Shown here piece by piece: positions 4,224 through 23,842 of a stretch of DNA of 64,000 nucleotides. Positions within the stretch are counted from its first letter, which is position 1. Each line of letters opens with the position of its first letter. A program made the position numbers and the translations under genes. The stretch comes from Pseudomonas sp. WJP1 (GTDB taxonomy: Bacteria; Pseudomonadota; Gammaproteobacteria; Pseudomonadales; Pseudomonadaceae): the NCBI RefSeq assembly GCF_028471945.1, contig NZ_CP110128.1, positions 3,026,501 to 3,090,500 of the forward strand, given 5' to 3'. A model generated the notes under the pieces. That model was not told the DNA's origin. It did not search any database and saw only the letters and a program-made list of their open reading frames with translations.

Positions 4224-6584
4224 TCAATCACTTTGCGGGCGTTCGCCGGTTATCAGTCCGCGAATGGCGTTGATGGCGCGTTCGCGGGCGCTTTTCAGCA
4301 GTTGTGGAGAAAGCATTGGCGGCTGCAAGGTCCCTTGTGACAAGGGCATGACGCCAAGCGCGATATGCGCCTGCTCGAATTGCCGCTCCCGCCTTATCAG
4401 TCCGCCCGACACGAGTTTGAAATAGAATCTGCTGAAGCCTTCCTGTTGCTTGGGTGTGCCACGTACTCCCGTTGTGCGGTCAATGACCCCCAGTCGTTGC
4501 TCCAGAGCATGGCGAAGCCGGGCTTTGCCCTTGCGTTGGATGGGCAACGGAAATACCGCGACCGGACGTCCGGTCATGCAGGCCTCTGTCAGCATTGAAA
4601 GGCTGTCGCCGGTGACGATAAATCCATCCGCCAGCGCGAGAAATGCAGGATAGGGATTGTCTGGCGTCTCACCGAATCGATACGCCCAGCATGGAACGTC
4701 AATGGCAGTCAGCACCGCATCGGTGGTCGTTGCCGATGAGCGCGGACTGGTCGATAACAGAATCGAGCCGCCCAGGGCCTTGACCGCGGCATTGGCTTCA
4801 CGGCCGAGTCGAACCTCAGCATCGGCGTCCATGCAATAAGGTGCGGCGCTTGCGCCCACGAGGACGGCGATCCAGGGGCGCGGCAGTGAAGTGAAGCGCT
4901 GTCGCCATAGCTCCAGTTGCGCCTGATCCAGCGTGCGCGGGTTCATGTACGGGGCAGGGAGGTCCACTACGTTGTCCGCCAGGGCAAGCCCATATTGCGG
5001 CGTCGACAACACCAGGTCGAAGCGCCACAAGGGGACCTGGGCACGTCCCACATGGACCAGTCGTGTCGTGTCCTTGGAGCGATGCTTGATCCACTGGGCA
5101 ATCTGGGCGCAACGCCGTCCCGCACTCAGGACCATGTCTGGCCAGGGTGCGCTCAGGCCCGGTACTGGCCGTCTGGGCAACCAGGTGCCCAGCAGGGCGT
5201 CGAGCAGATAAGGGCGAGGTGGGATGGTGATGCGTTTGCATTCGTAAGGCCAGCCCAACGCGTCGGCCATGGCCATCAGCTGTGCATTGTCACCTGCATG
5301 ATTGCTCAGCAGCACCCAGACCTTGGGGCTGTCGGCCGTCTTGCGCCGCAACGCATAGTCCGCGACAAAGCGCTGCGTGCGACCCTTCTCATCCTCGCAA
5401 TCGAGCTGCCAGCAACGATCCGGATAGCGCCGCGCGATGCGCCGCAGGAGTCGGCGCCAGCCGCTGACAGAGCTGATCATCGAACCATCGCCACTGAGCC
5501 TTGCCTTGATGTAAAGCAATCGGGTGGCCAGGCTGAACAGGCGATCGATGACCCAGGGCAGGTCTTGCGGCGCCAGCTTTTCAAGGCCATGGGCCGCGAT
5601 GAAATCCTGAGGGGGTAGATCGACCTGGCGAAGCTGCTCAATATCGAACTGCCTGACTGTTGGGCCGTGTGCCTGCGCTTGTTGCCATGGTCCGATCAGC
5701 CCGAGCTTCGCACACTGCAGCTTGTGACTGAGCAGTTTGACATCTTCCGGGATAAGCGCCGGTTGCGTGGTGATTTCCTGGCTGGCGTGGACGAATCGGG
5801 GACTGGGTTGTGCGGCCGTGTAGAGCTCATACCCGGCAGCGTCTGCCGCTTCCTCAAGGCTGAGAAAAATTTCGCCGTAGGGATGGATCTGATAGCTGTA
5901 TTGCGCGGGCAGCGGTCTCCAGGGCTGCAGATGCAGCGTCGTGTAATGCAACAACCGGGACTCGCCGTGTTTGTATTCCAGGTCCCGTGCGTGCCAAATC
6001 GCATCCAGTATCCCGAAGCAGCCCGGTATCTCGGCTGCAAGCGCGTGCAGTTTCTTTTTACTGGTCGTGGTGGCAGCTTTCATGTTCCAGCAGCGGTGCA
6101 TCCGCTCGCAGTCGATGAGCATGACGGCGGTCTCTCTGGGCGCGAGCGCCAGATAGCCGTGCTCGCCCATCGGTTGGTCGAACAGCGGGGCCGGGTCGGC
6201 GGTGTAGATCTGATCGACGTCATTATAGAGCGCGCGACCGTGGCGCCCAGCCAGGTCCGGGATAGCGAAGCGGTAATTGGTGAAGCCGGTACGCCAGCCC
6301 GCCTGGTCGAAACCGGGCAGGCCCGTCATCCGGTAAATTTCATAACGACGGTCCGGGTTTCGCACCTGCTCCAGCGCATAGACGAACATGCGCTCGGCAC
6401 GGTACTGCGCAGGTTCGGTACCCAGGAATATGCGCACGGCGGGTGCCTGCGGGGCACCGGCTCGGGCTGCCAGGACGATCGGCTCGATGCGGGGGATCGC
6501 CACCTGATCCCCAGTGTTCGCTTCGGCGACGGGATCGCGGGTGTCGATGCTTGAGGATGACTGTGCTGAACCCTCCAAGCGCAT
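4224..6584 (-). CDS. Fused glycosyltransferase-like / ELM1-family (DUF1022) protein
   Basis: A 786-residue protein of two parts. The N-terminal part (about residues 48-270) looks like a nucleotide-sugar glycosyltransferase: it begins VRIFLGTEP and carries a DxD-type motif in YNDVDQIYTADP (DVD at 122-124). The C-terminal part (from about residue 420) is a typical ELM1/DUF1022 domain, with VWVLLSNHAGDNAQ and VTGDSLSMLTEA, then TGRPVAVF. ELM1 proteins have a GT-B-like fold and are often called mitochondrial fission proteins by transfer from plants; in bacteria they are probably glycosyltransferases. The start at 6584 has GAGGA seven bases upstream. It lies beside the candidate sphingolipid operon and diverges from the LicC-like gene, so it may glycosylate the lipid head group. 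That role is inferred from location only. Confidence 0.75.
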   Translation of the reverse strand: MRLEGSAQSSSSIDTRDPVAEANTGDQVAIPRIEPIVLAARAGAPQAPAVRIFLGTEPAQYRAERMFVYALEQVRNPDRRYEIYRMTGLPGFDQAGWRTGFTNYRFAIPDLAGRHGRALYNDVDQIYTADPAPLFDQPMGEHGYLALAPRETAVMLIDCERMHRCWNMKAATTTSKKKLHALAAEIPGCFGILDAIWHARDLEYKHGESRLLHYTTLHLQPWRPLPAQYSYQIHPYGEIFLSLEEAADAAGYELYTAAQPSPRFVHASQEITTQPALIPEDVKLLSHKLQCAKLGLIGPWQQAQAHGPTVRQFDIEQLRQVDLPPQDFIAAHGLEKLAPQDLPWVIDRLFSLATRLLYIKARLSGDGSMISSVSGWRRLLRRIARRYPDRCWQLDCEDEKGRTQRFVADYALRRKTADSPKVWVLLSNHAGDNAQLMAMADALGWPYECKRITIPPRPYLLDALLGTWLPRRPVPGLSAPWPDMVLSAGRRCAQIAQWIKHRSKDTTRLVHVGRAQVPLWRFDLVLSTPQYGLALADNVVDLPAPYMNPRTLDQAQLELWRQRFTSLPRPWIAVLVGASAAPYCMDADAEVRLGREANAAVKALGGSILLSTSPRSSATTTDAVLTAIDVPCWAYRFGETPDNPYPAFLALADGFIVTGDSLSMLTEACMTGRPVAVFPLPIQRKGKARLRHALEQRLGVIDRTTGVRGTPKQQEGFSRFYFKLVSGGLIRRERQFEQAHIALGVMPLSQGTLQPPMLSPQLLKSARERAINAIRGLITGERPQSD

Positions 6585-6794
6585 GGGCGTGTCCTCGGAA
6601 AATTAACCACCCAAGCATAGAGCGAAATACGAGAGTCGAGGATAAAGTTTCCGAGTGGTGTTTTTTTCAGTCGAGGCGATGGGCGGGTGTCGAAAGGTTT
6701 AACTGAGCGAATGGATTGTTCTAGTCTAGCAAGCAAGTCTTTAAATGATCGCAGGTCCTGCTAGTTCAAATCCTTAAACAGGAGCCCGGGACAA

Positions 6795-7604
6795 ATGGGT
6801 CTATTCGAACAACGCACCCGTACTGCAGCAATCTTGTTGAGCGCCGGACAAGGACGACGGCTTCTTCCCTATACGACGAACAGCCCCAAGTGCCTGATCG
6901 AGGTGGGTGGGCAGCGGGTCATAGAATGGCAGATTGATGCGCTGATGGCCGCCGGGATAAGCCGGATAACCGCGGTGATCGGTTATGGTGCAGAGCAGGT
7001 CGAGCGGGTGTTGAACGAACGTTACGGGCCAGGTGTCATTTCTACGATTTACAACCCGTTCTTTGAAGTTGCCGATAACCTGGCCAGTTGCTGGATGGCT
7101 CGCCAGATAATGCATGACGATTTCATCCTGCTAAATGGCGATACACTATTCGACCAGCCAGTCCTGGAGCGTCTACTTGATGCGCCTGCCAGGGCAATTA
7201 CACTCGCGGTCGACAGGAAACCGGCTTACGACAGCGACGATATGAAAGTTCAACTCGTCGGTGATCGAATCAGCGCCATCAGTAAACAGATCCCGCTCGA
7301 TTATGTCGACGGGGAGTCTATTGGCATGATGCATTTCCAGACGGGAGGAGGGCCGCTGTTTCGAAGTGCGCTGGAAGAAAGCATGCGCCGTCCTGAAGCC
7401 CTGCAAATGTGGTATTTGAGCATCATCGATCATCTTGCAGGGACTACTGGACAGGTTTTCGCGCAGTCAATCGAAGGGTTGGGCTGGGTTGAGTTGGACT
7501 ATCCTGCCGACCTCAGGGCAGCACAAGTGCTGGTCAGGCCCTGGGTAGACCGCAAGCGTGGCACAGAAACCTCCTGCGTTCAGGGCGAGAACGAGCGCTC
7601 CTGA
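6795..7604 (+). CDS. LicC-like sugar/choline-phosphate nucleotidyltransferase
   Basis: A 269-residue single-domain nucleotidyltransferase. It has the nucleotide-binding loop AGQGRRLLPYT (about residues 17-27), PKCL (31-34), the DNLASCW segment characteristic of the phosphocholine cytidylyltransferase (LicC) family, and a metal-binding NGDTLFD. Such enzymes join CTP to a small phosphorylated alcohol, giving a CDP-activated head group in the cytoplasm. ATG at 6795 follows AGGAG by about ten bases. The gene converges on the metallophosphoesterase (20 bases between stops) and diverges from the ELM1 fusion gene across about 210 bp. It could supply the CDP-head group for the CDP-alcohol phosphatidyltransferase in the neighbouring operon. 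The true substrate is unknown. Confidence 0.78.
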   Translation: MGLFEQRTRTAAILLSAGQGRRLLPYTTNSPKCLIEVGGQRVIEWQIDALMAAGISRITAVIGYGAEQVERVLNERYGPGVISTIYNPFFEVADNLASCWMARQIMHDDFILLNGDTLFDQPVLERLLDAPARAITLAVDRKPAYDSDDMKVQLVGDRISAISKQIPLDYVDGESIGMMHFQTGGGPLFRSALEESMRRPEALQMWYLSIIDHLAGTTGQVFAQSIEGLGWVELDYPADLRAAQVLVRPWVDRKRGTETSCVQGENERS

Positions 7605-7624
7605 CGTGGGAACTTCAAGCCCCT

Positions 7625-8461
7625 TCAATCGATTGGGCTCACAACCGTAGACAGCCGACAGTCACAATGAGATTCGACGCTGCGTTCAAACGCGCTGCGG
7701 GAGACAGAATACTCCCAGCGTTCGATGCTGACGTGCCGGGTTCGTTTATCCAGATAGAGTCGGTTGAACGAATTGGGCGCATTGCCGCGTAGACGTGACG
7801 AGAGCGTGGTTCCCGCCTGAACCCCCCAGATTTCCTTGGACAGTCCGGCATATTGCGTGCTGAGTGCCAGCACATAGGGAAGATGAATGTGCCCCCCCAT
7901 CACCAGGTCGAGCCCTGCCGAGGCCCAGCGTTCCAATGCAGCCCTGGCGCCGATCTGCAGGTTGCGTCGGTCGCTGGCGACGATTGAGCCGAACGGTTGA
8001 TGAGCGACGACGATGCGCAGTTTTTGCGGATCGCATTTCTGTAGCCGCTCAGCCACTTCCTCGACTTGCCGGGCCGTAACCTTGCCCGCTTTGCGCCGTT
8101 TAGGGTGTGTCGTGTTCAAGCAGATGATCAGGGCATCGTCATTCTCGAAGATGGGCGCGAGATTGCTGTCGATGTACCGGTAATAATTCCCATAGGGTGC
8201 AAAAATCCGCGCGAACAGGTTGTACATGGGAATATCGTGGTTGCCGGGTATCGTCAGGACTTGCGGTACTCCGTAGTCCTTGATGCGCTTGATGAATGCC
8301 TGCGCCGAGGCGAATTGCTCACGCCTGGCGCGCTGCGTGATGTCCCCTGAGAAAAGGACCAGGTCGGCACCGTGAGCCTTGACGTGCGTTTCGAAGGCTT
8401 GCATGACGGGGGGCTGTTCCGTGCCGAAATGCGTATCGGAAATATGCAGGAGACGGGTCAT
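7625..8461 (-). CDS. Calcineurin-type metallophosphoesterase
   Basis: A 278-residue metal-dependent phosphoesterase. All family motifs are visible: DTH in HISDTHFG (residues 9-11), SGDITQR (38-44), PGNHD (72-76), the catalytic-site histidine in VAHQPF, and GGHIHLPY. The start is the ATG at 8461, which overlaps the stop of the upstream 50-codon gene as ATGA. A longer reading frame continues upstream to 8638 but lacks family similarity and would run through that small gene. It is the last gene of the nine-gene minus-strand operon with lipid-activation enzymes. It might remove a phosphate or hydrolyse a CDP-lipid (an LpxH-like reaction), but this is inference. Confidence 0.85.
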   Translation of the reverse strand: MTRLLHISDTHFGTEQPPVMQAFETHVKAHGADLVLFSGDITQRARREQFASAQAFIKRIKDYGVPQVLTIPGNHDIPMYNLFARIFAPYGNYYRYIDSNLAPIFENDDALIICLNTTHPKRRKAGKVTARQVEEVAERLQKCDPQKLRIVVAHQPFGSIVASDRRNLQIGARAALERWASAGLDLVMGGHIHLPYVLALSTQYAGLSKEIWGVQAGTTLSSRLRGNAPNSFNRLYLDKRTRHVSIERWEYSVSRSAFERSVESHCDCRLSTVVSPID

Positions 8462-8610
8462 CGTGGCTGGTAATCCTCTATACCCGACAGGGCTCGGCTG
8501 CGCAGGACGACTTTTTCCAGGCGCTTGATAATCCACAACCCGAGCGCCACGCTGGGCTGATGCATGCGCTTTGGAGATCGGGCGCTGGGGCGATCTTCGC
8601 CTCTGTTCAT
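8458..8610 (-). CDS. Small 50-residue protein, translationally coupled to the phosphoesterase
   Basis: A 50-codon frame too short for most gene finders. ATG at 8610 is preceded by AGAGG with seven bases between. Its TGA overlaps the ATG of the metallophosphoesterase (ATGA), a classic coupling arrangement. The peptide starts MNRGEDRPSARSPKR and contains a short hydrophobic/basic stretch (VALGLWIIKRLEKVVL, about residues 21-36) that could form a membrane-surface helix. I do not recognise it. Without it there would be a 190-bp gap in an otherwise tightly packed operon. It could be a real small protein or a leader that mainly delivers ribosomes to the next gene. Confidence 0.5.
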   Translation of the reverse strand: MNRGEDRPSARSPKRMHQPSVALGLWIIKRLEKVVLRSRALSGIEDYQPR

Positions 8611-8650
8611 GGGTTGCCTCTGTGGTTCGCGTTGGCAAGGAGCGACTTCA

Positions 8651-9616
8651 TCAGCGTAACCGGCGGTTTTTCAGCAGTCGCCAGAGCAGCGGCCAACCGA
8701 AGATCAGGGGGAAGCGGCGCAACCTGTGGGTCACGACGACGGATTCACCCAAGTGGCGCTCCAGCTTCCAGATCAGGTAGTCGACACCGTTTTCGAAGGT
8801 GAAGAAGGATTTGACCAGCCGCGCTACGTTCAAGGTTCTCCCCTGAACCCGCCTTAATCTCCACGCTCGCTCATTATCTCGACGCGTTGCGGCGGGGCTA
8901 AGGTTGCGATAACTATCCTCTTCGCCCGCACAGCTTGCCAAGTGCTTCACAGCAGGCGCGGCGGCTCGGGTAATGCGCGAATAATAGGTCCTGTCATGCC
9001 TGACGAGCTGCCCGGGGCGATCGGCTGATTCGGGGCGCAGCTCGGCCCCGTATGTCAGCGACAGTGCCCTAACCCATAGTGTGTAGCTGTCGAATCGATC
9101 CGGTAGATTGGCGACGCAGTGGCCCATCAGCGTCACCACGGCTTGAGCCAATGCGAGATGGATACGCCCCTGCGTATCCTCGTCCTTGAAATAAACGAGT
9201 CGGCAGGGCTGGGCGAAACGGGCCCAGAGGTAGCTTTGAAACCACGAACGGGTACCCACCTCGAAGTCCTGCAGCGACAGGAGGGCGCATTTGGCATGGA
9301 GTATTTGCCCATCGGGCGCAGGCGTCCTGACGAGGATCACAGTGGGAGGGAGCCAAGCATTGGCGAGTTGCTGCACGCGCTTTGGATGAGCGTGAGCGTA
9401 GCTGTCGACCAGCGCATAAAAGTCGACAATGCCATCGGTGAGGTCGCCGTTGCGCAGGCATGAACCGTAGACCAGCAGCGCCACCAATGCGTCACCCAGG
9501 CGTATGTGCAATGCCTGGACAATCCTGTCCAGCTCGCCGGGCATCGGCTGCGCGCATTGCTCCCTGACCAGTTCGAGCAGGTCCGCTGGGGGCGGGGGAG
9601 AATCAGTGGCTCGCAT
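8651..9616 (-). CDS. Tam41/Mmp37-like phosphatidate cytidylyltransferase
   Basis: A 321-residue protein with a nucleotidyltransferase active-site pattern: VYGSCLRNG (about 49-57), followed by an acidic VDFYALVD (64-71). Downstream, HAKCALLSLQDF and YLWARFAQPCRLVY match the positions of the Tam41 family motifs (KYGVIS... and YLAGR.QKPV). Tam41 is the mitochondrial CDP-diacylglycerol synthase, joining CTP and phosphatidate; bacterial relatives exist. Here it lies between the lipid-kinase-family gene and the phosphoesterase in the operon. It may therefore activate the phosphorylated lipid made by the kinase, either phosphatidate or ceramide-1-phosphate. The family call comes from motif spacing by eye; the substrate is a guess. 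Confidence 0.65.
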   Translation of the reverse strand: MRATDSPPPPADLLELVREQCAQPMPGELDRIVQALHIRLGDALVALLVYGSCLRNGDLTDGIVDFYALVDSYAHAHPKRVQQLANAWLPPTVILVRTPAPDGQILHAKCALLSLQDFEVGTRSWFQSYLWARFAQPCRLVYFKDEDTQGRIHLALAQAVVTLMGHCVANLPDRFDSYTLWVRALSLTYGAELRPESADRPGQLVRHDRTYYSRITRAAAPAVKHLASCAGEEDSYRNLSPAATRRDNERAWRLRRVQGRTLNVARLVKSFFTFENGVDYLIWKLERHLGESVVVTHRLRRFPLIFGWPLLWRLLKNRRLR

Positions 9617-9631
9617 GGGATCTCAATTGTC

Positions 9632-10603
9632 CTAAAAGGTCATGAAGCGGATCGGGTCCGTGGCGGCGAGCGTGATCGTGCCCTGTGCTGCAAAAATTTC
9701 CCCGTCCAGCACGTACTCGTCGGCACCACCGAGATCCATCCGGGTGAAATTGTGGCTGTAGTAACCATCCTGCTCTTTGATCATCGAGCAGGCCCGCCCC
9801 CGGAGCAGGAACGGCAGGATGAGGGCCAGTCGCCTGGGTCGATGCGCAATGGCGGTTAAATGAACAGGCTGCTGTTCGGTGCCCCAATAAGGCCTGCTCC
9901 CGGCCAGGAGCCTGTTCAGGGTCGTGGCAAACACCAACAGCCAGTCGCCTTCCCAGACGCCGCGATGGGTGTCCAGGCGAGCAGGCAATGCCGGGAATAG
10001 ATCGTGTGGCAATTTTCTCAGCGCTGAGAGCAGCATTCGGCCGAAAGCCAGCAACGGCCCCAGTGCCCCGGGTACGCGCTTGGGCCGCAGCTCCCGATGG
10101 TAGTAGCGCACGCCGTTCACAACAGCACCAATGGCGAAGAACATTCCGAATCGCGGCCCTTGGTACAGCGAGCCATCCACCCGAAGCGCCGCGCGCGATA
10201 CGATTTTTGGCGCGGCGCAATTCCCGGCGAGCCAGGCGGATAAGCTCCTCAGGGCCTTTTCGGCGCTCAGGCGCGCGCCCAGATCGATCGCACTCATGTT
10301 AGTGGTGCCGCCCGGAATAACCAGAACGGTGGGTAGGCCTGCAGGCTCGCGACCCAGCAGAATGGATAGGGCGGCTTGCAGGGTTCCGTCGCCGCCCAGG
10401 ATCACCAACAGGTCACTTTCCCTCAGCTGGAAATGGCACACGGCATGGGCGATCTCCTGGGACGTGGTCGCTTCGAGCATGACCGCACCGGGTACGTTGC
10501 GAGCGAGCAGGCGGAACCTGGGCAAGGCGCGTCGCAGGGTGCCGCTGCAAGGATTGAGCACAATCGCGACTTTCCCGGGCCGCGCGCAGGCTTCATGCAT
10601 CAT
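9632..10603 (-). CDS. Diacylglycerol/sphingoid-base kinase family lipid kinase
   Basis: A 323-residue lipid kinase of the DAGK/LCB5/YegS fold. It shows LNPCSGT (about 16-22, the usual NP.SG loop), LGGDGTL at 69-75 (ATP and catalytic loop) and PGGTTN at 97-102. Enzymes of this family transfer phosphate from ATP to diacylglycerol, sphingosine or ceramide at the membrane. The ATG at 10603 overlaps the end of the CDP-alcohol phosphatidyltransferase gene by 11 bp, so the two are co-translated. In Caulobacter a bacterial ceramide kinase is needed for ceramide phosphoglycerate. Placed next to a candidate ceramide synthase, this gene is a good ceramide kinase candidate, but diacylglycerol is not excluded. 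Confidence 0.8.
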   Translation of the reverse strand: MMHEACARPGKVAIVLNPCSGTLRRALPRFRLLARNVPGAVMLEATTSQEIAHAVCHFQLRESDLLVILGGDGTLQAALSILLGREPAGLPTVLVIPGGTTNMSAIDLGARLSAEKALRSLSAWLAGNCAAPKIVSRAALRVDGSLYQGPRFGMFFAIGAVVNGVRYYHRELRPKRVPGALGPLLAFGRMLLSALRKLPHDLFPALPARLDTHRGVWEGDWLLVFATTLNRLLAGSRPYWGTEQQPVHLTAIAHRPRRLALILPFLLRGRACSMIKEQDGYYSHNFTRMDLGGADEYVLDGEIFAAQGTITLAATDPIRFMTF

Positions 10604-11777
10604 TGAGGCCCGAGCGGGGCGCGAACATCCGCACGATCAAGCGGTCGCGTTCGGCGGCCATGTCGATGCGGCTAAGCCAGGGCTGGGGCGGCTGTCCCCG
10701 GTGCTTCAAGACAATGGCGGACATTGAGCGAACCCCCAGGATCAGCGTCGAGAGGCAGGTCCAGACGGCCACCCAAATCAACGCCGTGTCATGGGCATCC
10801 ACCGCCCATAAGCAGGTCAATATGAGCAAATTGGGATTACGCCGCGCGGTGACCAGCCTGTTGAGTGAGTCGAACGGGCGCCAGAGAAACAGCGAAAAAG
10901 GCGCAGCGAACTTGAACGCAGCTTCGCACAGCCGACCCGCGACATAGCCCAGGCAAATGGCCCAGAGCACCGGGTCGAGGGGTATGTCCGAGTCCCAGGT
11001 GGCCTCATAGCCCAATCCCCACGCGATATACCAGAGCGGCGGGTGAATCAGGTCCAGGCCATGGTCGAAAATGTTTCCGAAGCGAGTGGAGGTCACGGTG
11101 ACGCGTGCCAGCTTGCCATCCACCGTATCCAGGAACGTCATCAACCAGCCAGCCAGCAGGCCAGCACCAAATAGTCCATGCCAGAACAGAAAGCCTGCGG
11201 CGATGGCCAGGACATAGCTTGCCGCAGTCACCTGATTGGGACTGAGGCCCCGCCGCACGCACCAGACGGTGGCCCAGCGAGCCGGGACAGGCCAGATCGC
11301 CCGGGTGATGAAGTCGGTGACGCCTTTGTAGGAACCGTTGAACAGCGACTTCTCAAGATGAGCCTGATTGGCGGCGGTGATTTGCGCGACCCACGGCGGA
11401 TCGAATTTGCGCAGTTGTGTCTGCATCGCGGTGGCCACGGTGCCGGGAACCACTTTGCGTAATCCGGCGACGGCGTCGCTGTCCAGGCTGGGCGAGTGTG
11501 CGAGGCGTTCGACATGGGTGTGGGCCGCGACGATGGCACCGGTCCGCGGGTCCTGTAGCGCGACCTCAGGTGTTGCCAGCAGCCCCTGGAGCACGCGGTC
11601 ATCGTAAAGGTAATCCTCGCGCAGCAGGACGACCTCGCCCTGGGCCGGCAACGGATCGTGCGCGTTGCACAGATAGGCGTCGGGAAACTTTGCGAGCATA
11701 CGGCCCACTCGCTCCCTGGAAGTCAGGCCCCACAGCCGAACCGGGCAGCTACAGATCAGGTAAACGGGAGTCTTCAT
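10593..11777 (-). CDS. CDP-alcohol phosphatidyltransferase with degenerate nucleotidyltransferase N-terminus
   Basis: A 394-residue protein. The C-terminal half is a membrane CDP-alcohol phosphatidyltransferase with a perfect signature: D217, D220, G221, A224, R225, G234, D238 and D242 (D-x2-DG-x2-AR-x8-G-x3-D-x3-D), flanked by hydrophobic helices. The first ~140 residues (CPVRLWGLTSRERVGRML, VVLLREDYLYDD) resemble a nucleotidyltransferase fold that has lost its GxGxR nucleotide loop. Members transfer a phospho-alcohol between a CDP-donor and a lipid or alcohol acceptor in the inner membrane, so this is the likely head-group step. The operon also encodes a MobA-like nucleotidyltransferase that could replace the missing activity. 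The fusion resembles the IPCT/DIPPS layout of inositol-phosphate enzymes. Confidence 0.85.
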   Translation of the reverse strand: MKTPVYLICSCPVRLWGLTSRERVGRMLAKFPDAYLCNAHDPLPAQGEVVLLREDYLYDDRVLQGLLATPEVALQDPRTGAIVAAHTHVERLAHSPSLDSDAVAGLRKVVPGTVATAMQTQLRKFDPPWVAQITAANQAHLEKSLFNGSYKGVTDFITRAIWPVPARWATVWCVRRGLSPNQVTAASYVLAIAAGFLFWHGLFGAGLLAGWLMTFLDTVDGKLARVTVTSTRFGNIFDHGLDLIHPPLWYIAWGLGYEATWDSDIPLDPVLWAICLGYVAGRLCEAAFKFAAPFSLFLWRPFDSLNRLVTARRNPNLLILTCLWAVDAHDTALIWVAVWTCLSTLILGVRSMSAIVLKHRGQPPQPWLSRIDMAAERDRLIVRMFAPRSGLNDA

Positions 11778-14005: not shown

Positions 14006-14077
14006 GTCCTGGATCCTGACCTTGCGCCGTGCCCGGACCGTGCTCGCGCGATCGGGCATTCCTGCCGTCCAGATCCA

Positions 14078-14908
14078 TCAGGTATCGTTCGGTATCGACT
14101 GATTTCTCTGGGCATGAAACCTCTCCACCATTTGATAATCCAGCGGTGAATCGACATCGATGGCGGCCTCCGCGAAGGGCATGATCACCGCCCCGAGACT
14201 CACTCCCAACCTGTCGGAAAGCTGTTGCAGCGCTTGTTCCAGGGTCAACCGACCCAACAGATAGCGCAGTATTCCCGCAAAGCCCAGAGCGCCGGCGACG
14301 ACCCGCCTGGGATGCTTGCGATCGTTTTCGACCCGTTGCCAGAAGCTGGCGAGGCGTCGAGCATCGTCTGTCATGAAGGCGAACAGGTTGCTGCCGCAAT
14401 ACGGGCCACCGCGCAGCCGGATGCCGGTGCGGCGGGTGCCTGGAAAACGAGCCAGCACGGTGTCCAGTGGTGTCACCGCCACCACAAAGTCATGGCCGCT
14501 TGCAGTCGCTTGTTGTAGAAAATAGTCGACCATCTCCCGGCAGAGCAGCGCATGGTCCGCTGTAGTCACCAACACGGGGCTGTCTGCCGGTTGGCGCGCC
14601 AGCGCCAGCGCCGCGCTGGCACTAGGGGAGCTGGCGGGTTCCAGCCAACTGACTGTGGCGGTGTCCAGCAGTCGTGTCATCGAGGCATCTTGCGCCAGTA
14701 AATTGCGCGCAGGGCCCACGAGCACGATTCGGTCGATACGGTCAGTGGCTGCCAACGCCTCGACTACGCGACGGACCATGGGTACACCCGCCACCGGTGC
14801 CAATGCCTTGCAGCAAGTCCCGGCCATGGCGGCAACGGGATCGGCCGGGCCCCTGTCAGCCGCCAGGACCAAAGCGGTGAACTGACGGACCTCAAATTCG
14901 TTTTTCAT
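14078..14908 (-). CDS. MobA-like nucleotidyltransferase
   Basis: A 276-residue NTP-transferase-fold protein starting at the ATG at 14908 (MKNEFEV). The first ORF codon at 14971 lies well inside the ceramide-synthase-like gene. The N-terminus reads ALVLAADRGPADP and then CCKALAPVAGVPMV, corresponding to the LAaGxGxR...K...L nucleotide-binding pattern. The usual GxG loop is altered, while the downstream CKALAPV lysine is kept. A metal site is suggested by TTADHALL and DVDSPLDYQ. It overlaps the 3' end of the upstream gene by 17 bp. It could charge a head-group phosphate with CTP for the CDP-alcohol phosphatidyltransferase. The altered loop makes activity uncertain. Confidence 0.7.
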   Translation of the reverse strand: MKNEFEVRQFTALVLAADRGPADPVAAMAGTCCKALAPVAGVPMVRRVVEALAATDRIDRIVLVGPARNLLAQDASMTRLLDTATVSWLEPASSPSASAALALARQPADSPVLVTTADHALLCREMVDYFLQQATASGHDFVVAVTPLDTVLARFPGTRRTGIRLRGGPYCGSNLFAFMTDDARRLASFWQRVENDRKHPRRVVAGALGFAGILRYLLGRLTLEQALQQLSDRLGVSLGAVIMPFAEAAIDVDSPLDYQMVERFHAQRNQSIPNDT

Positions 14909-16037
14909 AGATCCGGTAGCGCTTGTAGGAGGTGGCACCGATTTGATCGAGAATCTTGCGCATGACCGCATTCGATTCCAGGATCCAGGACATTTCCAGG
15001 GCTTCTATGCCGCGTTTAACGAAGGGTGGCTTGAGCGCTTCGATCAATAGCAAGGCGAGTGCAGGCCCCAATCGGCTGAATTGGTAAGTCTGCTTGACGC
15101 CCATCAGGGGCACGCGTGCAGTCCGCGGGCCCTTGACATAGAGCCGCCACAGCAGCCGCAGCCAGCCAAAGGGCAGCAAGCGCCCGTTGAGCGAGGCGAT
15201 CGCCTCGTTGATGTTCGGCATGGCCACGATAAACGCGCAGGGTTCGCCGTCGACTTCGGCGATGTACAGCAGGTCTTTGGGGACCAGTAGCCGCAATTGG
15301 CTGCCAAGCTCGTAGAATTCGGATTCGGTGAAGGGTACGAAACCCCAGTTACGGCTCCAGGCGTCATTGAAAATTTCTCGCAGAATGCGCATGTCTCGCC
15401 GGAACTGACGGGGGGCCAGGGGCCTGATCACCACGCGTTTGCGCTCGCGCGCCATCATCGCCGACAAGGCCGGTGGGAAATGCAATTGGTCGGTGCGCAT
15501 CCAGTAGGCGAGCAGATCCTTGGCTTGCCGGTAGCCCAGGGCAGCGAGCCTTTGGTCATAAAAACGCTGTCCGTGTCCCATCATGGCGGACGGGGGATGA
15601 TCGAATCCCTCCACCAGCAGCCCGCTTTCCTGGTTGATGGTCAGGTTGAAGGGGCCTGTGATGCGTGCAGCGCCACGTTCACGCAGCCAGGCCTCTGCCG
15701 CCGCGAACAGGCTGTCGAAAACAGCGGGGTCGTCCACGGCTTCCAGCATCCCGAAGTGCCCCGAATCGTCGCCGTGCAATTGCCGGTGAAGGGTGTCGAC
15801 CTGTGCGGTGATACGCCCCACGACTTCAGTTCCCGACCAGGCCAGCCACGCCTGCCATGTCAGATGAGGGGATGCCGGATTCTTTGCAGAAAGGAGTTCA
15901 TGGCGCTCGTAATGGATAGGTTCGATCCAGCAAGGATCGTTGCGATACAGGGTCCCCGGGAAACTGATGAATGTCTCGAGATCCAGGCGTGAGAGGACAG
16001 GGCGCGTAATGATTGGCAACTTCTTATTGATCATCAT
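14892..16037 (-). CDS. GNAT-family protein resembling bacterial ceramide synthase
   Basis: A 381-residue protein. The N-terminal segment has an FPGTLYRNDPCWIEP motif and ITGPFNLTINQESGLLVEGF. The C-terminal GNAT-like acyltransferase core has YIAEVDGEPCAFIVAMPNINEA and a final LEMSWILESNAVMRKIL. Length and motifs fit the bacterial ceramide synthase (bCerS) family first shown in Caulobacter, which N-acylates a sphingoid base with fatty acyl-CoA. I use the ATG at 16037 (a second ATG follows at 16034); the longer frame begins at a TTG. It heads a nine-gene minus-strand operon and diverges from the AMP-ligase/reductase/ACP/SPT operon, the partners expected for ceramide synthesis. It may be another acyltransferase, but the neighbourhood strongly supports this call. 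Confidence 0.72.
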   Translation of the reverse strand: MMINKKLPIITRPVLSRLDLETFISFPGTLYRNDPCWIEPIHYERHELLSAKNPASPHLTWQAWLAWSGTEVVGRITAQVDTLHRQLHGDDSGHFGMLEAVDDPAVFDSLFAAAEAWLRERGAARITGPFNLTINQESGLLVEGFDHPPSAMMGHGQRFYDQRLAALGYRQAKDLLAYWMRTDQLHFPPALSAMMARERKRVVIRPLAPRQFRRDMRILREIFNDAWSRNWGFVPFTESEFYELGSQLRLLVPKDLLYIAEVDGEPCAFIVAMPNINEAIASLNGRLLPFGWLRLLWRLYVKGPRTARVPLMGVKQTYQFSRLGPALALLLIEALKPPFVKRGIEALEMSWILESNAVMRKILDQIGATSYKRYRIYEKRI

Positions 16038-16453
16038 TGGCCACAAAAGTCCATAGCAGTTGAACTCGCATCTCTTTCTTAGTGCCTGGCAGAGCGTAGC
16101 TGAAGTATTGGCGCACGGTGCGCGTGCAGCAAATATAGGTGCCTGTGCTTCAGTAAGCGCTTAGTAATCAACGCACTTTGCGACAATCGTCGTGTTTGAG
16201 AACGAGGTGCTATTGCGATGCTCGAAACTCGCCGGTCGTCGCTCACCCGGGAAAAAATTTGCGCTCACCCAGATGCCGATTAGTATTGCGTTAGGCTTTG
16301 TAATTAATTGAAAAGGCTAAGCCGGATATCCTGGGGCCAGGACCCCATGGAAACGGTTTTGAGGGCAGTAGAACGGCACGTGTTTTACTGGCGCAGGTGA
16401 TCATTCCGCTATTTGACTTGTCCTTACTTGGCTAAATGGATGGGTGTTTTGTT
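16038..16453. promoter_or_regulatory. Bidirectional control region of the sphingolipid locus
   Basis: This 416-bp gap separates the two divergent operons. It is visibly more AT-rich around 16280-16320 (TTTGTAATTAATTGAAAAGG) than the coding DNA. It holds a short dyad, TGGGG-N6-CCCCA, at 16332-16347. No convincing coding frame or RNA gene was seen, and no sigma-70 promoter could be placed with confidence. Coordinated control of both operons from here is likely. Confidence 0.5.
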
Positions 16454-18184
16454 ATGTCTGCGACCCTTTCAAACCAGGCACTCACCCAACGTCTAGCGGA
16501 CTTTTCCACGCTGGTGGAAGCACTCGATTATGCCGCTTCAGGTCATACCGGCTTGAACTTCTACGACAGGCATTGCCACTTGGATGCAGCGCTCGAATAC
16601 GCGACGCTCAGAAGTAATGCGGTCGCGATTGCACAGCGGCTACTTGGGCTCAAGTTGAAGAAAGGCGATCGGGTCGCGCTGATCGCCGATACGCACCCCA
16701 GCTTTATCGAGTCCTTTTTTGCCTGCCAATACGCCGGCCTGATCGCCGTTCCGCTTCTGGTTCCGTCCAGCCTGGGAAGCCATCGTCCTTACGTGGACAA
16801 GTTGAAAGGGCTGTTCGCCAACTGCACACCCGCGGCCGTTTTAGGGTTGGAGGAATGGCTTCCCTATATCCGCGAAGCGCTGGGGGACACCCGCCAGGTG
16901 TTCGTCGGGTCTGTTCAGAAATTGGGCGAATTGCCTGCGGTGCAGGCGCTTCCCAGCGTCTTGCCGGAGGACATCGCCTACTTGCAATACACGTCCGGCA
17001 GTACCCGCTTTCCTCGTGGCGTGATCATTACCCAGCGTGCGGTGATGGCCAACATCAGGGGCATCGTCGTGGACGGTGTCGGTGTTCGCGCAGGGGACCG
17101 ATGTGCCTCCTGGTTGCCCTTTTATCATGACATGGGGCTGGTGGGTTTTGTCTTGGCGCCTATGGCAGCGCAACTGACTGTCGACTACTTGCACACCCGG
17201 GATTTTGCCACCCGGCCCGGGCAATGGCTCAAGCTTATCAGCCAGAATCGGGTGACTGTCTCGGTATCTCCGCCGTTTGGCTATGACCTGTGTACCCGGC
17301 GAGTCCGGGACCTGGAAAAAGCTGCGCTGGATCTCCGCTGTTGGCGTGTCGCGGGGATCGGTGCAGAACCGATTCGGGCATCGGTGTTAAGCCGTTTCGC
17401 CAATTGTTTTCTTGATACCGGATTCGATCCGGCCGCCTTCACGCCTTGCTACGGTCTGGCGGAAAGCACACTTGCCGTCAGCTTTGCCCGCCGCGGGGTA
17501 GGGGTGCAGGTGGATCATGTGGTTCGCCAGGTATTGGAGCATCAGTTCAGGGCGCAGGTGTGCACGGCCGATGATTCGGCAACCTGCACCTTTACCAACT
17601 GTGGCGCCCCTTTGCCCGGTCATTGTGTGGAAATCCGCAATGCTGCGGGGCTGGTGCTGGCGGAGCGGGAAGTGGGGCATATATTCGTTCAGGGTCCCAG
17701 CGTAATGTCAGGATATTTCAATGACTCGCCAAGCACGCAGATGGCCTTGAAAGCCGACTGGCTGGACACCGGCGACCTGGGGTACCTGTCCCGAGGCGAA
17801 CTCCATATCACCGGACGGCGCAAGGATTTGCTGATTGTCCGCGGTAGAAACATCTGGCCGCAGGATATCGAATACCTGGTGGAGTCCGAAGCCGAACTGA
17901 GACCGGGCGATGCCATCGTATTTGTCGTGCCCGGCGATGATGAGCCTCAGGTGGTGGTCCAGGTTCAATGTCGCATCCGTGAACCGGAAATTCGCGAACG
18001 CCTGGTCCGTACCCTGGTCGCGAAGATCATCAGTGAGTTCGGCCTGGCTACTGACGTGCACCTTGTACCGCCTCACTCGCTGCCTCGAACCTCCTCGGGC
18101 AAACCTTCCCGTGCCGAAGCCCTGGAACGATTCATGGCCCAGGCGAACACCGACCTTCCTTATCCGGCACTGGAGGAGACGTGA
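16454..18184 (+). CDS. FAAL-like acyl-AMP / acyl-ACP ligase (AasR-type)
   Basis: A 576-residue adenylate-forming enzyme. It has the P-loop YTSGSTRFPRG (arginine where most have lysine), the GYGLAEST-type motif (CYGLAESTL), the hinge TGRRKDLLIVRGRN and the catalytic C-terminal lysine in TSSGKPSR. This pattern fits fatty acyl-AMP ligases that load an acyl carrier protein. I use the ATG at 16454 (MSATLSNQ); an upstream ATG at 16436 adds six residues, and neither has a strong ribosome site. Its stop overlaps the next gene (GTGA). With the adjacent ACP gene it probably activates a fatty acid as acyl-ACP for the serine palmitoyltransferase-like enzyme, as the corresponding Caulobacter pair does. 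Confidence 0.83.
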   Translation: MSATLSNQALTQRLADFSTLVEALDYAASGHTGLNFYDRHCHLDAALEYATLRSNAVAIAQRLLGLKLKKGDRVALIADTHPSFIESFFACQYAGLIAVPLLVPSSLGSHRPYVDKLKGLFANCTPAAVLGLEEWLPYIREALGDTRQVFVGSVQKLGELPAVQALPSVLPEDIAYLQYTSGSTRFPRGVIITQRAVMANIRGIVVDGVGVRAGDRCASWLPFYHDMGLVGFVLAPMAAQLTVDYLHTRDFATRPGQWLKLISQNRVTVSVSPPFGYDLCTRRVRDLEKAALDLRCWRVAGIGAEPIRASVLSRFANCFLDTGFDPAAFTPCYGLAESTLAVSFARRGVGVQVDHVVRQVLEHQFRAQVCTADDSATCTFTNCGAPLPGHCVEIRNAAGLVLAEREVGHIFVQGPSVMSGYFNDSPSTQMALKADWLDTGDLGYLSRGELHITGRRKDLLIVRGRNIWPQDIEYLVESEAELRPGDAIVFVVPGDDEPQVVVQVQCRIREPEIRERLVRTLVAKIISEFGLATDVHLVPPHSLPRTSSGKPSRAEALERFMAQANTDLPYPALEET

Positions 18185-19098
18185 GTGCTCGCGTTGTTTC
18201 GCTCACTGGCGCGACTGGCTTCATAGGCAGTGTCCTACGCGAACGACTCGTCACCCGTGGTGTGGAGGTCCGTGCCTTGGCTCGCACCAGGGGAGGAACG
18301 GCAGAGGATGGAACAACGTGGATCAGGGGAACACTGGAAGACCGGCAGGCCCTCGCCGAGCTCACCAAGGGGGCGGATGCCGTCATTCATTGCGCAGGCA
18401 AGGTCCGGGGCAGGAATGCCCGAGACTTCGACGCGGTCAATGTGCAGGGCAGCAAGCGCTTGATGGAGGCGACGCGGCTGGGTGGCAGTTGCGAGCGTTT
18501 CCTGTTGATTTCGTCCCTTGCCGCCAGGCATCCGACATTGTCCTGGTACGCCGCTTCCAAACTCGAAGGTGAACGGCAGGTCAAGGCCGCTGCCGGGGCG
18601 ATCCCCGTGTGTATTTTCAGGCCGACCGCCGTGTATGGACCGGGCGATCGCGAGTTGCGTCCGGTGTTCGAGTGGCTTCTACGCGGCTGGCTGGTGACCC
18701 TCGGTCGAGACGATTCACAGTTCAGCTTTCTCCACGTGGACGATTTGGTCAGTGCCGTCATGCAGTGGCTGGATTCACCTGTCGTGCAATCGCAGACCTT
18801 TGAGTTATGTGACGGCCGGGTGCAGGGGTACGACTGGGCAAGCCTGGCCAGCATCGCCACCGACATCCGCAATGCGCCGGTACGGCAAGCGGTAGTGCCT
18901 GCCTCGGTATTGAAAGCAATCGCACGGGCTAACCTGGTGCTGTCTCGTTTCACCCGGCAGGCGCCTATGCTGACCCCCGGTAAGGTCAATGAACTGATGC
19001 ACCCTGACTGGACTTGCAGCAATGCCCGCATTAGCGCGACATTGGGCTGGGAGCCCCGGATTCTGTTACCGCAAGCGTTGCGCAATCACCTGTTTTGA
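18181..19098 (+). CDS. NAD-dependent epimerase/reductase, candidate 3-ketosphinganine reductase (CerR-type)
   Basis: A 305-residue extended short-chain dehydrogenase with the NAD(P)-binding motif TGATGFIG (residues 9-16) and the catalytic pair Y123 and K127 in WYAASK. It starts with GTG, overlapping the ligase stop codon by four bases, so it is co-translated. In the Caulobacter ceramide cluster an enzyme of this epimerase family reduces the keto group of the sphingoid intermediate, replacing the SDR used by eukaryotes. The same order here (ligase, reductase, ACP, SPT) suggests the same role. Confidence 0.78.
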   Translation: MSARVVSLTGATGFIGSVLRERLVTRGVEVRALARTRGGTAEDGTTWIRGTLEDRQALAELTKGADAVIHCAGKVRGRNARDFDAVNVQGSKRLMEATRLGGSCERFLLISSLAARHPTLSWYAASKLEGERQVKAAAGAIPVCIFRPTAVYGPGDRELRPVFEWLLRGWLVTLGRDDSQFSFLHVDDLVSAVMQWLDSPVVQSQTFELCDGRVQGYDWASLASIATDIRNAPVRQAVVPASVLKAIARANLVLSRFTRQAPMLTPGKVNELMHPDWTCSNARISATLGWEPRILLPQALRNHLF

Positions 19099-19134
19099 AC
19101 GCGCGAAGAGCCACTGAACCCAAGGAGACCTTCG

Positions 19135-19395
19135 ATGATCACACAAGAAACGATACTCGAAAGGGTGATGATGCTCATCGTGCGGTTCGCACCTCCAGGA
19201 ACGCCAATCAACCCCAATACCGACCTGGCCCAGGACCTGGGAATGGAATCGATCAAGGTGATGGACATGCTGATGGAACTGGAAGACGAGTTCGACATCT
19301 CGATCCATCTCAATATCCTGATGGATGTGCGCACACCTAAGCAGTTGGCTGACGCCATTCTCAACCTGATGGAGCACGCCAATGGGACTCTTTGA
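19135..19395 (+). CDS. Dedicated acyl carrier protein
   Basis: An 86-residue, acidic, helical carrier protein with the 4'-phosphopantetheine attachment site DLGMESIKVMD; the modified residue would be S39. ATG at 19135 follows AAGGAG. It overlaps the serine palmitoyltransferase-like gene by 14 bp, so both are translated together. It differs from housekeeping AcpP (DLGADSLDTVE), pointing to a pathway-specific carrier that delivers the fatty acyl group for the first sphingolipid step. Confidence 0.88.
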   Translation: MITQETILERVMMLIVRFAPPGTPINPNTDLAQDLGMESIKVMDMLMELEDEFDISIHLNILMDVRTPKQLADAILNLMEHANGTL

Positions 19396-20584
19396 CAAGT
19401 TCGGCAAGCTGGCCGCCGAGCGCGCCAGTCTCTGTGACTCACAGATCCATCCTTTTGGAATTCGCATCGATGAGATGTATTCCCCAACCGAGGGCTGTAT
19501 TCAGGGGCAAAGGGTCATTCTGGCCGGCACCAATAATTATCTCGGGCTGACGTTCGACCCCGATAGCATCAAGGCGGCGCAGCGCTCACTGGAGCTTGAA
19601 GGCACCGGCACCACCGGCTCTCGCATGGCCAACGGCAGTTATGCCGGGCACAGCGCGCTGGAGGACGAACTGGTTGATTTCCTGGGGCGGCGTTCCGTCA
19701 TTGTGTTCTCGACCGGGTATGTCGCCAACCTGGGCGTCATCGGAACGCTGGCGGGTGCGCGCGAGGTGGTGCTGCTTGACGCCGACTGCCACGCGAGCAT
19801 CTACGACGCCTGCAAGCTGGGAGGTGCGGAGATCATCCGTTTTCGCCATAACGATGTCGCTGATCTGGAACGGCGCATGGTCCGCCTCGGCGACCGCGCG
19901 CGGGAAGCGATCATCCTGGTGGAAGGGATCTACAGCATGCTCGGTGACCAGGCTCCGCTCAGGGAAATAGTCGAGGTCAAGCGTCGCCTCGGCGGTTACC
20001 TGCTGGTTGACGAGGCGCATTCCTTTGGCGTCCTGGGGGCCAACGGGCGAGGGCTGGCCGAGGAGTTGGGCGTGGACTCGGAGGTGGACATCCTGTTGGG
20101 CACGTTCAGCAAGAGCCTGGGCGCCGTCGGCGGATTCGCCGCCTGTCATGACGGGCAAATGGACCTGCTTCGCTACGCCAGCAGACCCTATATTTTTACC
20201 GCTTCACCCGCCCCCTCGGCGATTGCCTCGGTAAGATCGGCGCTTGCGGCCATCAAGGAACGCCCGGAGCTGCGGCATCAGCTGTGGTCGAACGCCCGGC
20301 GGCTTTATCAAGGTTTGGCAGAGTCAGGCTACCAGTTGGGGCCGCAGGCCAGCCCCGTGATTGCCGTCATGCTGAAGTCGCCTCACGAGGGCCTGGCCGT
20401 CTGGCGGGGGCTGATGGAGAGGGGCGTCTATGTCAATCTGGTCCTTCCTCCCGCGACACCCGGCGCCGTCACCCTGGTGCGTTGCAGCGTCAGTGCAGCC
20501 CATACACCTGAACAAATAGACCGGATCATCGAGGCCTTCGCTTCACTGCGTGGCCCGATGGGCCTGGTCACAGCGGGCGCTTGA
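19382..20584 (+). CDS. spt: Alpha-oxoamine synthase, candidate serine palmitoyltransferase
   Basis: A 400-residue PLP-dependent enzyme of the alpha-oxoamine synthase family. It shows NNYLGL near the N-terminus, GTGTTGSRMANGS, the cofactor-stacking histidine in DADCHASI, DEAHSFG (D210-H213) and the PLP lysine K244 in GTFSKSLGAVGG. The family joins an amino acid and an acyl thioester with loss of CO2: BioF, KBL, ALA synthase and SPT. No bio genes are present. The overlap with a dedicated ACP gene and the ligase/reductase neighbours fit serine palmitoyltransferase, which makes 3-ketosphinganine-type bases from serine and acyl-ACP. Saxitoxin- or quorum-signal-type synthases are alternatives but less consistent with the context. 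Confidence 0.8.
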   Translation: MGLFDKFGKLAAERASLCDSQIHPFGIRIDEMYSPTEGCIQGQRVILAGTNNYLGLTFDPDSIKAAQRSLELEGTGTTGSRMANGSYAGHSALEDELVDFLGRRSVIVFSTGYVANLGVIGTLAGAREVVLLDADCHASIYDACKLGGAEIIRFRHNDVADLERRMVRLGDRAREAIILVEGIYSMLGDQAPLREIVEVKRRLGGYLLVDEAHSFGVLGANGRGLAEELGVDSEVDILLGTFSKSLGAVGGFAACHDGQMDLLRYASRPYIFTASPAPSAIASVRSALAAIKERPELRHQLWSNARRLYQGLAESGYQLGPQASPVIAVMLKSPHEGLAVWRGLMERGVYVNLVLPPATPGAVTLVRCSVSAAHTPEQIDRIIEAFASLRGPMGLVTAGA

Positions 20585-20642
20585 TGAGTGTCGCGAGCTG
20601 TCGGTGAGCTAATCTTTACCTACGTCATAGTGAACGACAGTC

Positions 20643-22370
20643 ATGCGGATTATTTTTGCCTTTGGCCGCTCCTATCCGGCCCGCACCGTGCTGATGCTCC
20701 TGAGTCTGCTGTTGGCAGGGGTGGTTGAAAGCGTCAGCCTGAGCGCAATGCTGCCCCTGATATCGGCCGTGCTTGAGGACCAGCCCCATTCAAAGCTGGC
20801 GGTCCAGGTCTTCGCGATCATGGACTCGATAGGCCTGGAACCCACGATCGCGAACATGCTGGTGATCATCGTCGTGGGCATGACGCTGAGTAACCTGCTG
20901 ATATTGCTGGGCAATCGACAGGTCGGCTACACCGTGGCGCATGTGGCAACCGACCTGCGTATTGACCTGATCAAGGCGTCGTTGGGCAGCCGCTGGGAAT
21001 ATTATCTACGCCAACCCGCCGGAGCGCTGGCCAACGCCGTGGCAACCGAAGCCTACCGCGCTTCCACCGCCTATGAGCACGCGGCCAATATGCTGGCGCT
21101 GGGTATCCAGGCCGCGGCCTACGCGATCATTGCGCTTTTTGTCTCCTGGCAGGCGGCGATCCTGTCATTGCTGATCGGCTTTGTGCTGCTGGTGGCTGTG
21201 CGGGGACTGGTAAAGACATCGCGGCGGGTGGGCAAAAGCCAGACCCGACTGATGCGCGAGCTGCTGGTCTACCTGACAGACACGCTTGCTTCGGTGAAAC
21301 CGCTCAAAGCCATGGCCCGCGATGACATCGCCGATTCTTTGCTGCGCGGTCACGCCGGCGAGCTGAACACGGCACTGGAACGCGAAGTGATGAGCCGCGA
21401 AACACTGAGGGCCCTGCAGGAACCCATGCTTGCGATCCTTGCCGCGGCGGGTCTCTACGCGGGGCTGGTCATCGGCGGTATGCCGCTGTCTTCGGTGATG
21501 GTGCTGATCTTCGTGGTGGTGCGCATGCTGGGGCTGCTGCACAAGGCGCAGCAGCGCTATCACCGGATGGCCGCGCAGGAGAGCGCCTACTGGGCCATCA
21601 ACGAGTCGATCGACAACGCTATCGCCGATGCCGAACCTGTCGGAGGGACTTGCACGCCTTCCCTGAAGCGGCAAATCGTTTTCGACAATGTCAGCTTTGG
21701 CTACGGGGGGCGGCAGGTCCTTGACAGCGTGTCGCTGAACTTTCCGGTCGGTTCATTCACCACCATGATCGGTCCTTCCGGTGCAGGCAAGACCACCGTG
21801 CTCGACCTGATCTGTTCGCTGCTCGCGCCGCAGGCTGGACGCATCAGGGTAGACGACTGTGACTTGCATGACCTTGACAGGAGGGCCTGGCGCCGAATGA
21901 TCGGCTATGTCACACAAGAAACCTTGCTGCTGCACGATAGCGTCCTGGCGAACGTCACGTTGGGAGACAAGGCCTTGAATGCCGCCGACGCCGAGCGCGC
22001 GCTCCGCCAGGCCGGTGCATGGCAGTTTGTGCAGGAGTGTCCTGGCGGGCTGCAATCGATCGTAGGCGAGCGCGGTGCCAAACTCTCGGGCGGTCAACGG
22101 CAGCGTATCGTCATCGCGCGTGCCCTGGCCCATCGCCCCAGGCTTCTGATCCTGGACGAAGCCACCAGTGCACTCGACCCGGAATCGGAGGTCGAGATAT
22201 GCCAGGTGCTGAAAAATCTGACCCCTGGCATCACTGTCATCGCGGTATCCCATCGCCCTGCCATGATCCGCATTGCTGATCAGATTCTCGAGGTGCGAGA
22301 CGGCAAGGTGTTGGCCATACACAATGCCGTCGATCCGGACGGCACCCGGGCTGACGAGGCGAAAGCCTGA
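20643..22370 (+). CDS. MsbA-like lipid ABC transporter
   Basis: A 575-residue half-size ABC exporter. The N-terminal region holds about six membrane helices (residues 10-300). The ATPase domain has Walker A GPSGAGKTT, signature LSGGQRQR, Walker B LLILDEATSALD and the switch histidine AVSHRP. It follows the SPT-like gene by 58 bp on the same strand. MsbA-type transporters flip lipids across the inner membrane, so it could flip the sphingolipid or its precursor before the LptF/LptG-like system exports it. The substrate is inferred from context only. Confidence 0.82.
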   Translation: MRIIFAFGRSYPARTVLMLLSLLLAGVVESVSLSAMLPLISAVLEDQPHSKLAVQVFAIMDSIGLEPTIANMLVIIVVGMTLSNLLILLGNRQVGYTVAHVATDLRIDLIKASLGSRWEYYLRQPAGALANAVATEAYRASTAYEHAANMLALGIQAAAYAIIALFVSWQAAILSLLIGFVLLVAVRGLVKTSRRVGKSQTRLMRELLVYLTDTLASVKPLKAMARDDIADSLLRGHAGELNTALEREVMSRETLRALQEPMLAILAAAGLYAGLVIGGMPLSSVMVLIFVVVRMLGLLHKAQQRYHRMAAQESAYWAINESIDNAIADAEPVGGTCTPSLKRQIVFDNVSFGYGGRQVLDSVSLNFPVGSFTTMIGPSGAGKTTVLDLICSLLAPQAGRIRVDDCDLHDLDRRAWRRMIGYVTQETLLLHDSVLANVTLGDKALNAADAERALRQAGAWQFVQECPGGLQSIVGERGAKLSGGQRQRIVIARALAHRPRLLILDEATSALDPESEVEICQVLKNLTPGITVIAVSHRPAMIRIADQILEVRDGKVLAIHNAVDPDGTRADEAKA

Positions 22371-23822: not shown

Positions 23823-23842
23823 AGCTGAGCAGGAGTATTGCC

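Follow-up and report, generated by a model that had tools for sequence, protein, structure and literature searches.

What does a compact cluster of predicted ceramide, head-group and export genes make in a pseudomonad, and where does the product go? We addressed this question in Pseudomonas sp. WJP1, on a window of 64,000 nucleotides (at 3.03-3.09 Mb on the single contig, which is 7.0 Mb long) in which 15 genes occupy positions 4224-22370, between a TonB receptor gene (2014-4074) and a lipase-like gene (22506-23822). Our analysis indicates that the product of the locus is probably a negatively charged ceramide bearing phosphoglycerate, of the ceramide phosphoglycerate types CPG or CPG2, and that its destination is the outer membrane. 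The cluster is a further example of an already published cluster type. Within the bounds of a limited literature search, what is new here is a structural and active-site test of CpgC, the co-occurrence of the genes across loci, and the existence of two forms in Pseudomonas. The genes form two blocks that diverge from positions 16047-16435, and the gene at 6795-7604 alone runs against its block. All the genes named by an earlier, sequence-only reading of this DNA are present where it placed them, and its descriptions of them were right. They are given below with their identities to open reading frames (ORFs) of G667, a genome in the order of Algimonas arctica through which the comparison with Caulobacter was made.

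4224-6584, reverse strand: double glycosyltransferase of 786 amino acids, with a predicted GT8-like GT-A domain (residues ~47-253) and a predicted ELM1-family GT-B domain (~417-782), here called GT8-ELM1
6795-7604, forward strand: CpgD-like cytidylyltransferase (predicted CTP:phosphoglycerate); 46.5% identity to G667
7625-8638, reverse strand: calcineurin-like metallophosphoesterase (PF00149, intact motifs), possible CC_1158 counterpart; start probably near 8461
8651-9616, reverse strand: CpgC-like protein of 321 amino acids with a Tam41 fold, predicted ceramide-1-phosphate cytidylyltransferase; 33% to G667
9632-10603, reverse strand: ceramide kinase, CpgB/CerK-like (PF00781, GGDGT motif); 30% to G667
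10593-11777, reverse strand: CpgA-like CDP-alcohol phosphatidyltransferase (PF01066, DGKLAR...GNIFDHGLD motif); 39% to G667
11853-12935, reverse strand: LptG2, second LptG-type permease (TIGR04408, 309 bits, cut-off 240)
12932-14059, reverse strand: LptF2, second LptF-type permease (TIGR04407, 287 bits, cut-off 230)
14078-14971, reverse strand: MobA-like nucleotidyltransferase, CC_1153-like (PF12804); 36% to G667
14892-16046, reverse strand: bacterial ceramide synthase, bCerS/CerS; 45% to the cerS-position ORF of G667
16047-16435, no strand: divergent intergenic control region between the bCerS and acyl-AMP ligase genes, assigned by position
16436-18184, forward strand: fatty acyl-AMP ligase (FAAL), AasR-like (NF006624, 787 bits, cut-off 600); 43.5% to G667
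18181-19098, forward strand: CerR-like ceramide reductase of the epimerase/SDR type (PF01370); 35% to G667
19135-19395, forward strand: dedicated acyl carrier protein, ACP (PF00550)
19382-20584, forward strand: serine palmitoyltransferase (SPT), Spt (NF047599, 627 bits, cut-off 500; tree); 54% to G667
20643-22370, forward strand: MsbA/HepA-like ABC exporter (PF00005/PF00664), candidate sphingolipid flippase

Judged by sequence, the ceramide gene set (aasR, cerR, acpR, spt and cerS) is complete at the locus. The genes for CerR, the acyl-AMP ligase and the ACP adjoin spt; the Spt and ACP genes overlap by 14 nt, and those of the reductase and the acyl-AMP ligase by 4 nt. Spt carries its pyridoxal phosphate lysine at position 244, within an FSKS motif. 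The sequence-only reading had taken this synthase for an SPT rather than BioF or KBL, and the score over the SPT cut-off bears this out. Identity as BioF, KBL or autoinducer synthase was rejected because all scores fell under the curated NCBIfam cut-offs (324 of 426, 302 of 460 and 216 of 428 bits, respectively), and Spt also lies under the 5-aminolevulinate synthase cut-off. In a PDB sequence search, the closest solved structures were bacterial serine palmitoyltransferases. Moreover, in a tree of 30 chosen rows, Spt groups with 21 other proteobacterial SPT rows, including that of the Caulobacter relative (support 95/99). The split uniting the SPT rows and a Bacteroidetes row against seven others is weak (58/9), these seven being lower-scoring homologues from the same genus that we provisionally labelled BioF-like.

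The GNAT protein had been proposed as a bCerS at 14892-16037. The gene stands, but its longest ORF spans 14892-16046, with a provisional start. In agreement with the proposed identity, it matches the G667 ORF across 98% of its length and is 60% identical to E. coli YghO. No Pfam or NCBIfam match was found for it at E <= 0.001; PF00583 is precomputed on some bCerS homologues among the matches listed. At the same threshold, 7856 of 8000 scored candidates were bCerS homologues, and a search of 57 genomes of relatives gave four matches (its own, and others at 51, 30 and 24% identity). Neither bCerS nor the glycosyltransferase had a PDB sequence match at E <= 0.1.

Related genes occur in other settings. 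In E. coli A0 34/86 (L120:7438-15219), YghO is the bCerS homologue and adjoins an annotated spt cluster and an LptFG pair; in the annotation, the strain's acyl-AMP ligase gene contains an internal stop. The window spt was partly matched in 503 of 5426 complete E. coli genomes. A different cluster, in genome G025 (L108:2158-13546), combines a distant bCerS-like gene (30%) with acyl-AMP-ligase-like and ABC-like genes and a 1055-amino-acid ORF. P. fluorescens MYb115 is likewise a Pseudomonas with an SPT-type enzyme for sphingoid bases, but the accessible text on SgaAB derives the chain from an iterative polyketide synthase (PMC12134224). Synthesis linked to such an enzyme was rejected for the window, as no polyketide synthase lies among the genes scanned at 2014-26150.

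To what extent do the remaining genes resemble those of Caulobacter? Of eight primer sequences given in the cpgD paper, G667 carries five where they would be expected, so it is close to C. crescentus, though not proven identical to it. The window CpgD matches the G667 ORF in which the start primer lies, CpgC matches the ORF between CerK and spt, and the CC_1153-like protein matches the ORF between cpgD and cerS; the arrangement of the G667 matches agrees with the published gene order. With CC_1152-CC_1168 of C. crescentus, the locus has in common Spt, bCerS, CerR, the acyl-AMP ligase, CerK, CpgC, CpgA, CpgD, a CC_1153-like protein, LptF2 and LptG2. PDB relatives of CpgD are transferases of the CTP:phosphocholine and inositol-phosphate types, and the CpgD structures announced in PMC13228409 were not among its PDB matches. 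According to the accessible part of Olea-Ozuna 2024 (PMC11324152), P. luteola and Azotobacter vinelandii have contiguous clusters with 13 of the 17 Caulobacter genes, without CC_1168, CC_1167, CC_1166 and CC_1158. Comparing these two clusters from the publication and from single homologues, we found a GT8-ELM1 relative in both species and bCerS and CpgC relatives in A. vinelandii. In Algimonas arctica (L077:11826-13885), a HAD-family hydrolase (PF12710) and a 455-amino-acid protein free of Pfam matches follow bCerS and a CC_1153-like gene.

For the CpgC homologue, the label of unclassified nucleotidyltransferase-like protein was replaced by Tam41 on the basis of family matches and fold. The predicted model of the CpgC homologue has a Tam41 fold over ~220-230 residues, at ~15% identity to PDB 6ig2, 6ig4 and 7ecd, and PF09139 matches 22 of 29 aligned CpgC relatives at E <= 1 (best 4.4e-9). 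Aspartate 65 is kept in all 29 rows, and the residue two positions earlier is I, L, M or V in every one of them; this check covered the first two of the three usual acid positions. Where three acidic residues are usual, the Tam41 family keeps a single one, as the accessible text of PMC11646218 describes. CpgC resembles the Tam41 CDP-diacylglycerol synthase in fold and in its single conserved acid, but its predicted substrate is ceramide-1-phosphate. Olea-Ozuna 2024 already noted a CDP-diacylglycerol-synthase InterPro domain in CC_1161 and suggested an NDP-activated ceramide (PMC11324152, accessible part), and we therefore dropped the claim that CDP-ceramide is a new idea. The fold and the one-acid active site support that published suggestion. 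Our limited literature search found no mention of 'CDP-ceramide' and, among the papers listed, no link of tam41 to bacterial sphingolipids.

The CpgC homologue might instead supply CDP-diacylglycerol, the Tam41 activity proper, given that Tam41, and likewise a bacterial member, makes this compound from phosphatidic acid (PMC11646218, accessible text). We consider this unlikely. The Caulobacter cpgC mutant loses CPG (PMC11324152, accessible part), and cpgC accompanies the kinase gene across loci, although linkage could contribute to this pattern. For such counts, 40 of 64 loci reached at least 19 kb, and 31 of these contain the FAAL, CerR, SPT and bCerS genes (core loci); a match had to cover 40%, or 25% in the case of the glycosyltransferase, and the flanks end at 10 kb, so that absences are not proof. 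Of the 31 core loci, 13 have both CerK and CpgC, one (L021) has CpgC alone and none has CerK alone. Hypergeometric values were set aside, as they take no account of relatedness or linkage. Rows for the alignments A1 (29) and A2 (31) were chosen by hand, in each case among 120 listed matches, with two loci added to A1.

A PF05118 hydroxylase gene, a candidate ceramide acyl hydroxylase, was seen beside cpgC in five of six relatives whose ORFs were tested there (L105:5192-5941; L038:18272-19039; L029:16134-16895; L106:13895-14806; L039:17201-18070). LpxO, which hydroxylates lipid A, belongs to the PF05118 family. The window cpgC has no PF05118 neighbour, and two PF05118 genes lie elsewhere in the genome.

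The full set had been called unusual for Pseudomonas. It is indeed rare: out of 397 genomes of the genus, nine (this one among them) carry an SPT over the cut-off; however, the cluster type has been published for P. luteola and A. vinelandii (PMC11324152, accessible part). Whole-genome searches found CerK in eight of the nine, the exception being P. umsongensis (G273), and CpgA in four; GT8-ELM1 is present in exactly these four. There are thus two forms: a full one with cpgA and GT8-ELM1 (4/9), and a reduced one that lacks both genome-wide (5/9) and keeps CerK and CpgC. The latter comprises P. agarici, P. marginalis and P. bohemica (G037, G303 and G085) together with G235 and G396. The absence of CpgD from the reduced form was read from the fetched loci, whereas CerK, CpgA and GT8-ELM1 were searched genome-wide. 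Among the core loci, CpgA and CpgD occur together in nine, and CpgD alone in L031, where the stretch may end early. Five named Pseudomonas loci (L021, L023, L024, L025 and L071) share the gene order of the cluster: 14 of the 15 proteins are 77-96% identical, and the short ACP is 67-88% identical. In four of these loci the fetched flank takes in only a part of the glycosyltransferase, and L021 lacks CerK. This common order argues that the cluster is not a product of chance.

The double glycosyltransferase raises the question of whether the end product carries sugars. Predicted models give it a GT8-like fold and an ELM1-family GT-B fold, on evidence that bears on residues ~47-253 and ~417-782 and barely covers ~254-416. 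According to the accessible text on Acinetobacter KdoT (PMC12856342, PMC10936431), that enzyme is also an ELM1-family GT-B protein and acts on an outer-membrane lipid; unlike in KdoT, the ELM1 domain of the window is fused to a GT8-like domain. Such a double enzyme inside the cluster could mean that a glycosphingolipid is the main end product, with GT8-ELM1 sugaring ceramide directly and the phosphoglycerate genes being a side branch. Halieaceae loci fit this idea, as they hold an ELM1 homologue and ceramide genes, with no match to CerK, CpgA or CpgD in the fetched stretch. Nevertheless, the coincidence of the glycosyltransferase with CpgA in four of nine genomes ties it, by association, to the CPG2 branch, and the kinase and cytidylyl genes of the window are intact, including their motifs. 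We regard a mainly glycosphingolipid product as distinctly improbable and favour the phosphoglycerate-bearing ceramide.

How might this lipid reach the outer membrane? The chromosome has two LptFG pairs, and the window pair is 27-31% identical to the other. LptF and LptG homologues accompany the ceramide genes in 24 of the 31 core loci, some at just 25-35% identity. They also stand beside ceramide genes in enterobacteria, where the fetched stretches show no CerK, CpgC, CpgA or CpgD, a pattern that suggests an association of the pair with the ceramide core. The ABC exporter, whose NCBIfam matches all lie under their cut-offs, has a strong match in 22 core loci; this count excludes two weak matches (L037 and L081, 30% over half of the protein) from 24 of 31. 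In Caulobacter, LptC2/F2/G2 and the flippase CC_1166 were proposed, without test, as sphingolipid transporters (PMC11324152, accessible part), and the ABC exporter may stand in for CC_1166. The sequence-only reading held that the extra genes decorate and export the ceramide, a view that CPG2 gene homology and the second LptFG pair support.

Several observations weigh against a Caulobacter-type phosphoglycerate lipid. Unlike Caulobacter, the Pseudomonas locus is without LptC2, and no second LptC was found in the genome, which has one PF06835 match (at 893277). Identities to G667 are low for LptG2 (24%), LptF2 (27% over 40%) and the phosphoesterase, which is only weakly like the CC_1158 counterpart (27% over 67%, within a broad superfamily). 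The GT8-ELM1 and ABC proteins are unmatched in the 30-kb G667 region at E <= 1, and the only match to the ACP there was weak and lay at another place. The window CpgC homologue itself has no PF09139 match at E <= 1. Finally, P. umsongensis DSM 16611 (L021) keeps the cluster without CerK anywhere in its genome.

By analogy with Caulobacter genetics and enzymology, the phosphoglycerate pathway would run as follows. The acyl-AMP ligase would load a fatty acid onto the dedicated ACP, Spt would condense the ACP-bound acyl chain with serine, bCerS would attach the second acyl chain, and CerR would then reduce the keto group. CerK would phosphorylate the ceramide. With CTP, CpgC would convert ceramide-1-phosphate into CDP-ceramide, which would give CPG by a step without an assigned enzyme. 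CpgD would make CDP-glycerate, which CpgA would use to add a second phosphoglycerate, assisted by the CC_1153-like nucleotidyltransferase and the phosphoesterase. GT8-ELM1 may glycosylate the product. The ABC exporter would flip the lipid, and LptF2G2 would feed it to the Lpt bridge, sharing the single LptC with lipopolysaccharide (LPS). We infer the CDP-ceramide, glycosylation, flipping and export steps from gene context.

A more specific picture can be put forward tentatively, as possible though doubtful: a lipid-A-like surface glyco-phosphoceramide. Tam41-type CDP-ceramide would lead to CPG2, GT8-ELM1 would add sugars, and the MsbA-like flippase and LptF2G2 would carry the lipid to the outer leaflet on the remaining LPS machine; the sister form in other pseudomonads would be a simpler, sugar-free phosphoceramide. 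In Caulobacter, CPG2 supports viability under LPS depletion (PMC12275187) and is a presumptive polymyxin target (PMC11324152, accessible part). A compact cluster that exists in full and reduced natural forms makes the pathway testable gene by gene, including the role of CpgC, the CPG-forming enzyme, the transporter used and lipid glycosylation.

The cluster also bears on gene mobility. In the SPT tree, four enterobacterial rows adjoin P. marginalis within the Pseudomonas rows (100/99), which suggests transfer of spt between enterobacteria and Pseudomonas. Counterparts of all 15 cluster genes are found on the IncP plasmid pPNP1 of Pseudomonas sp. JS425 (L119, NZ_CP073662.1), where an IS5 element splits bCerS, a class 1 integron integrase gene lies ~19 kb before spt, and cpgD and cpgA lie ~16 kb from spt. 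The locus could be acquired baggage, silent or decaying, from which no lipid is made; its patchy distribution in the genus, the loss of CerK in P. umsongensis and the split bCerS of the plasmid copy would be in line with this. However, all 15 reading frames of the window are open, the motifs checked are intact, and relatives keep the proteins at high identity, which makes baggage highly unlikely compared with a functional phosphoglycerate-lipid locus. P. umsongensis DSM 16611 keeps homologues of cpgC, cpgA and cpgD, and its bCerS and acyl-AMP ligase genes lie ~3.9 kb apart, against ~0.4-0.7 kb in other loci.

No regulator site was settled in the control region at 16047-16435, where the alignment is well conserved only among near relatives and too divergent beyond them. 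The GC content of the cluster is 60.2%, against 61.9% in the remaining window, which is not decisive as a sign of an island. Downstream, positions 22506-26150 encode a lipase resembling LipP1, a protein that resembles PhaC but scores under the TIGR01836 cut-off (291 bits against 365), and an SDR reductase.

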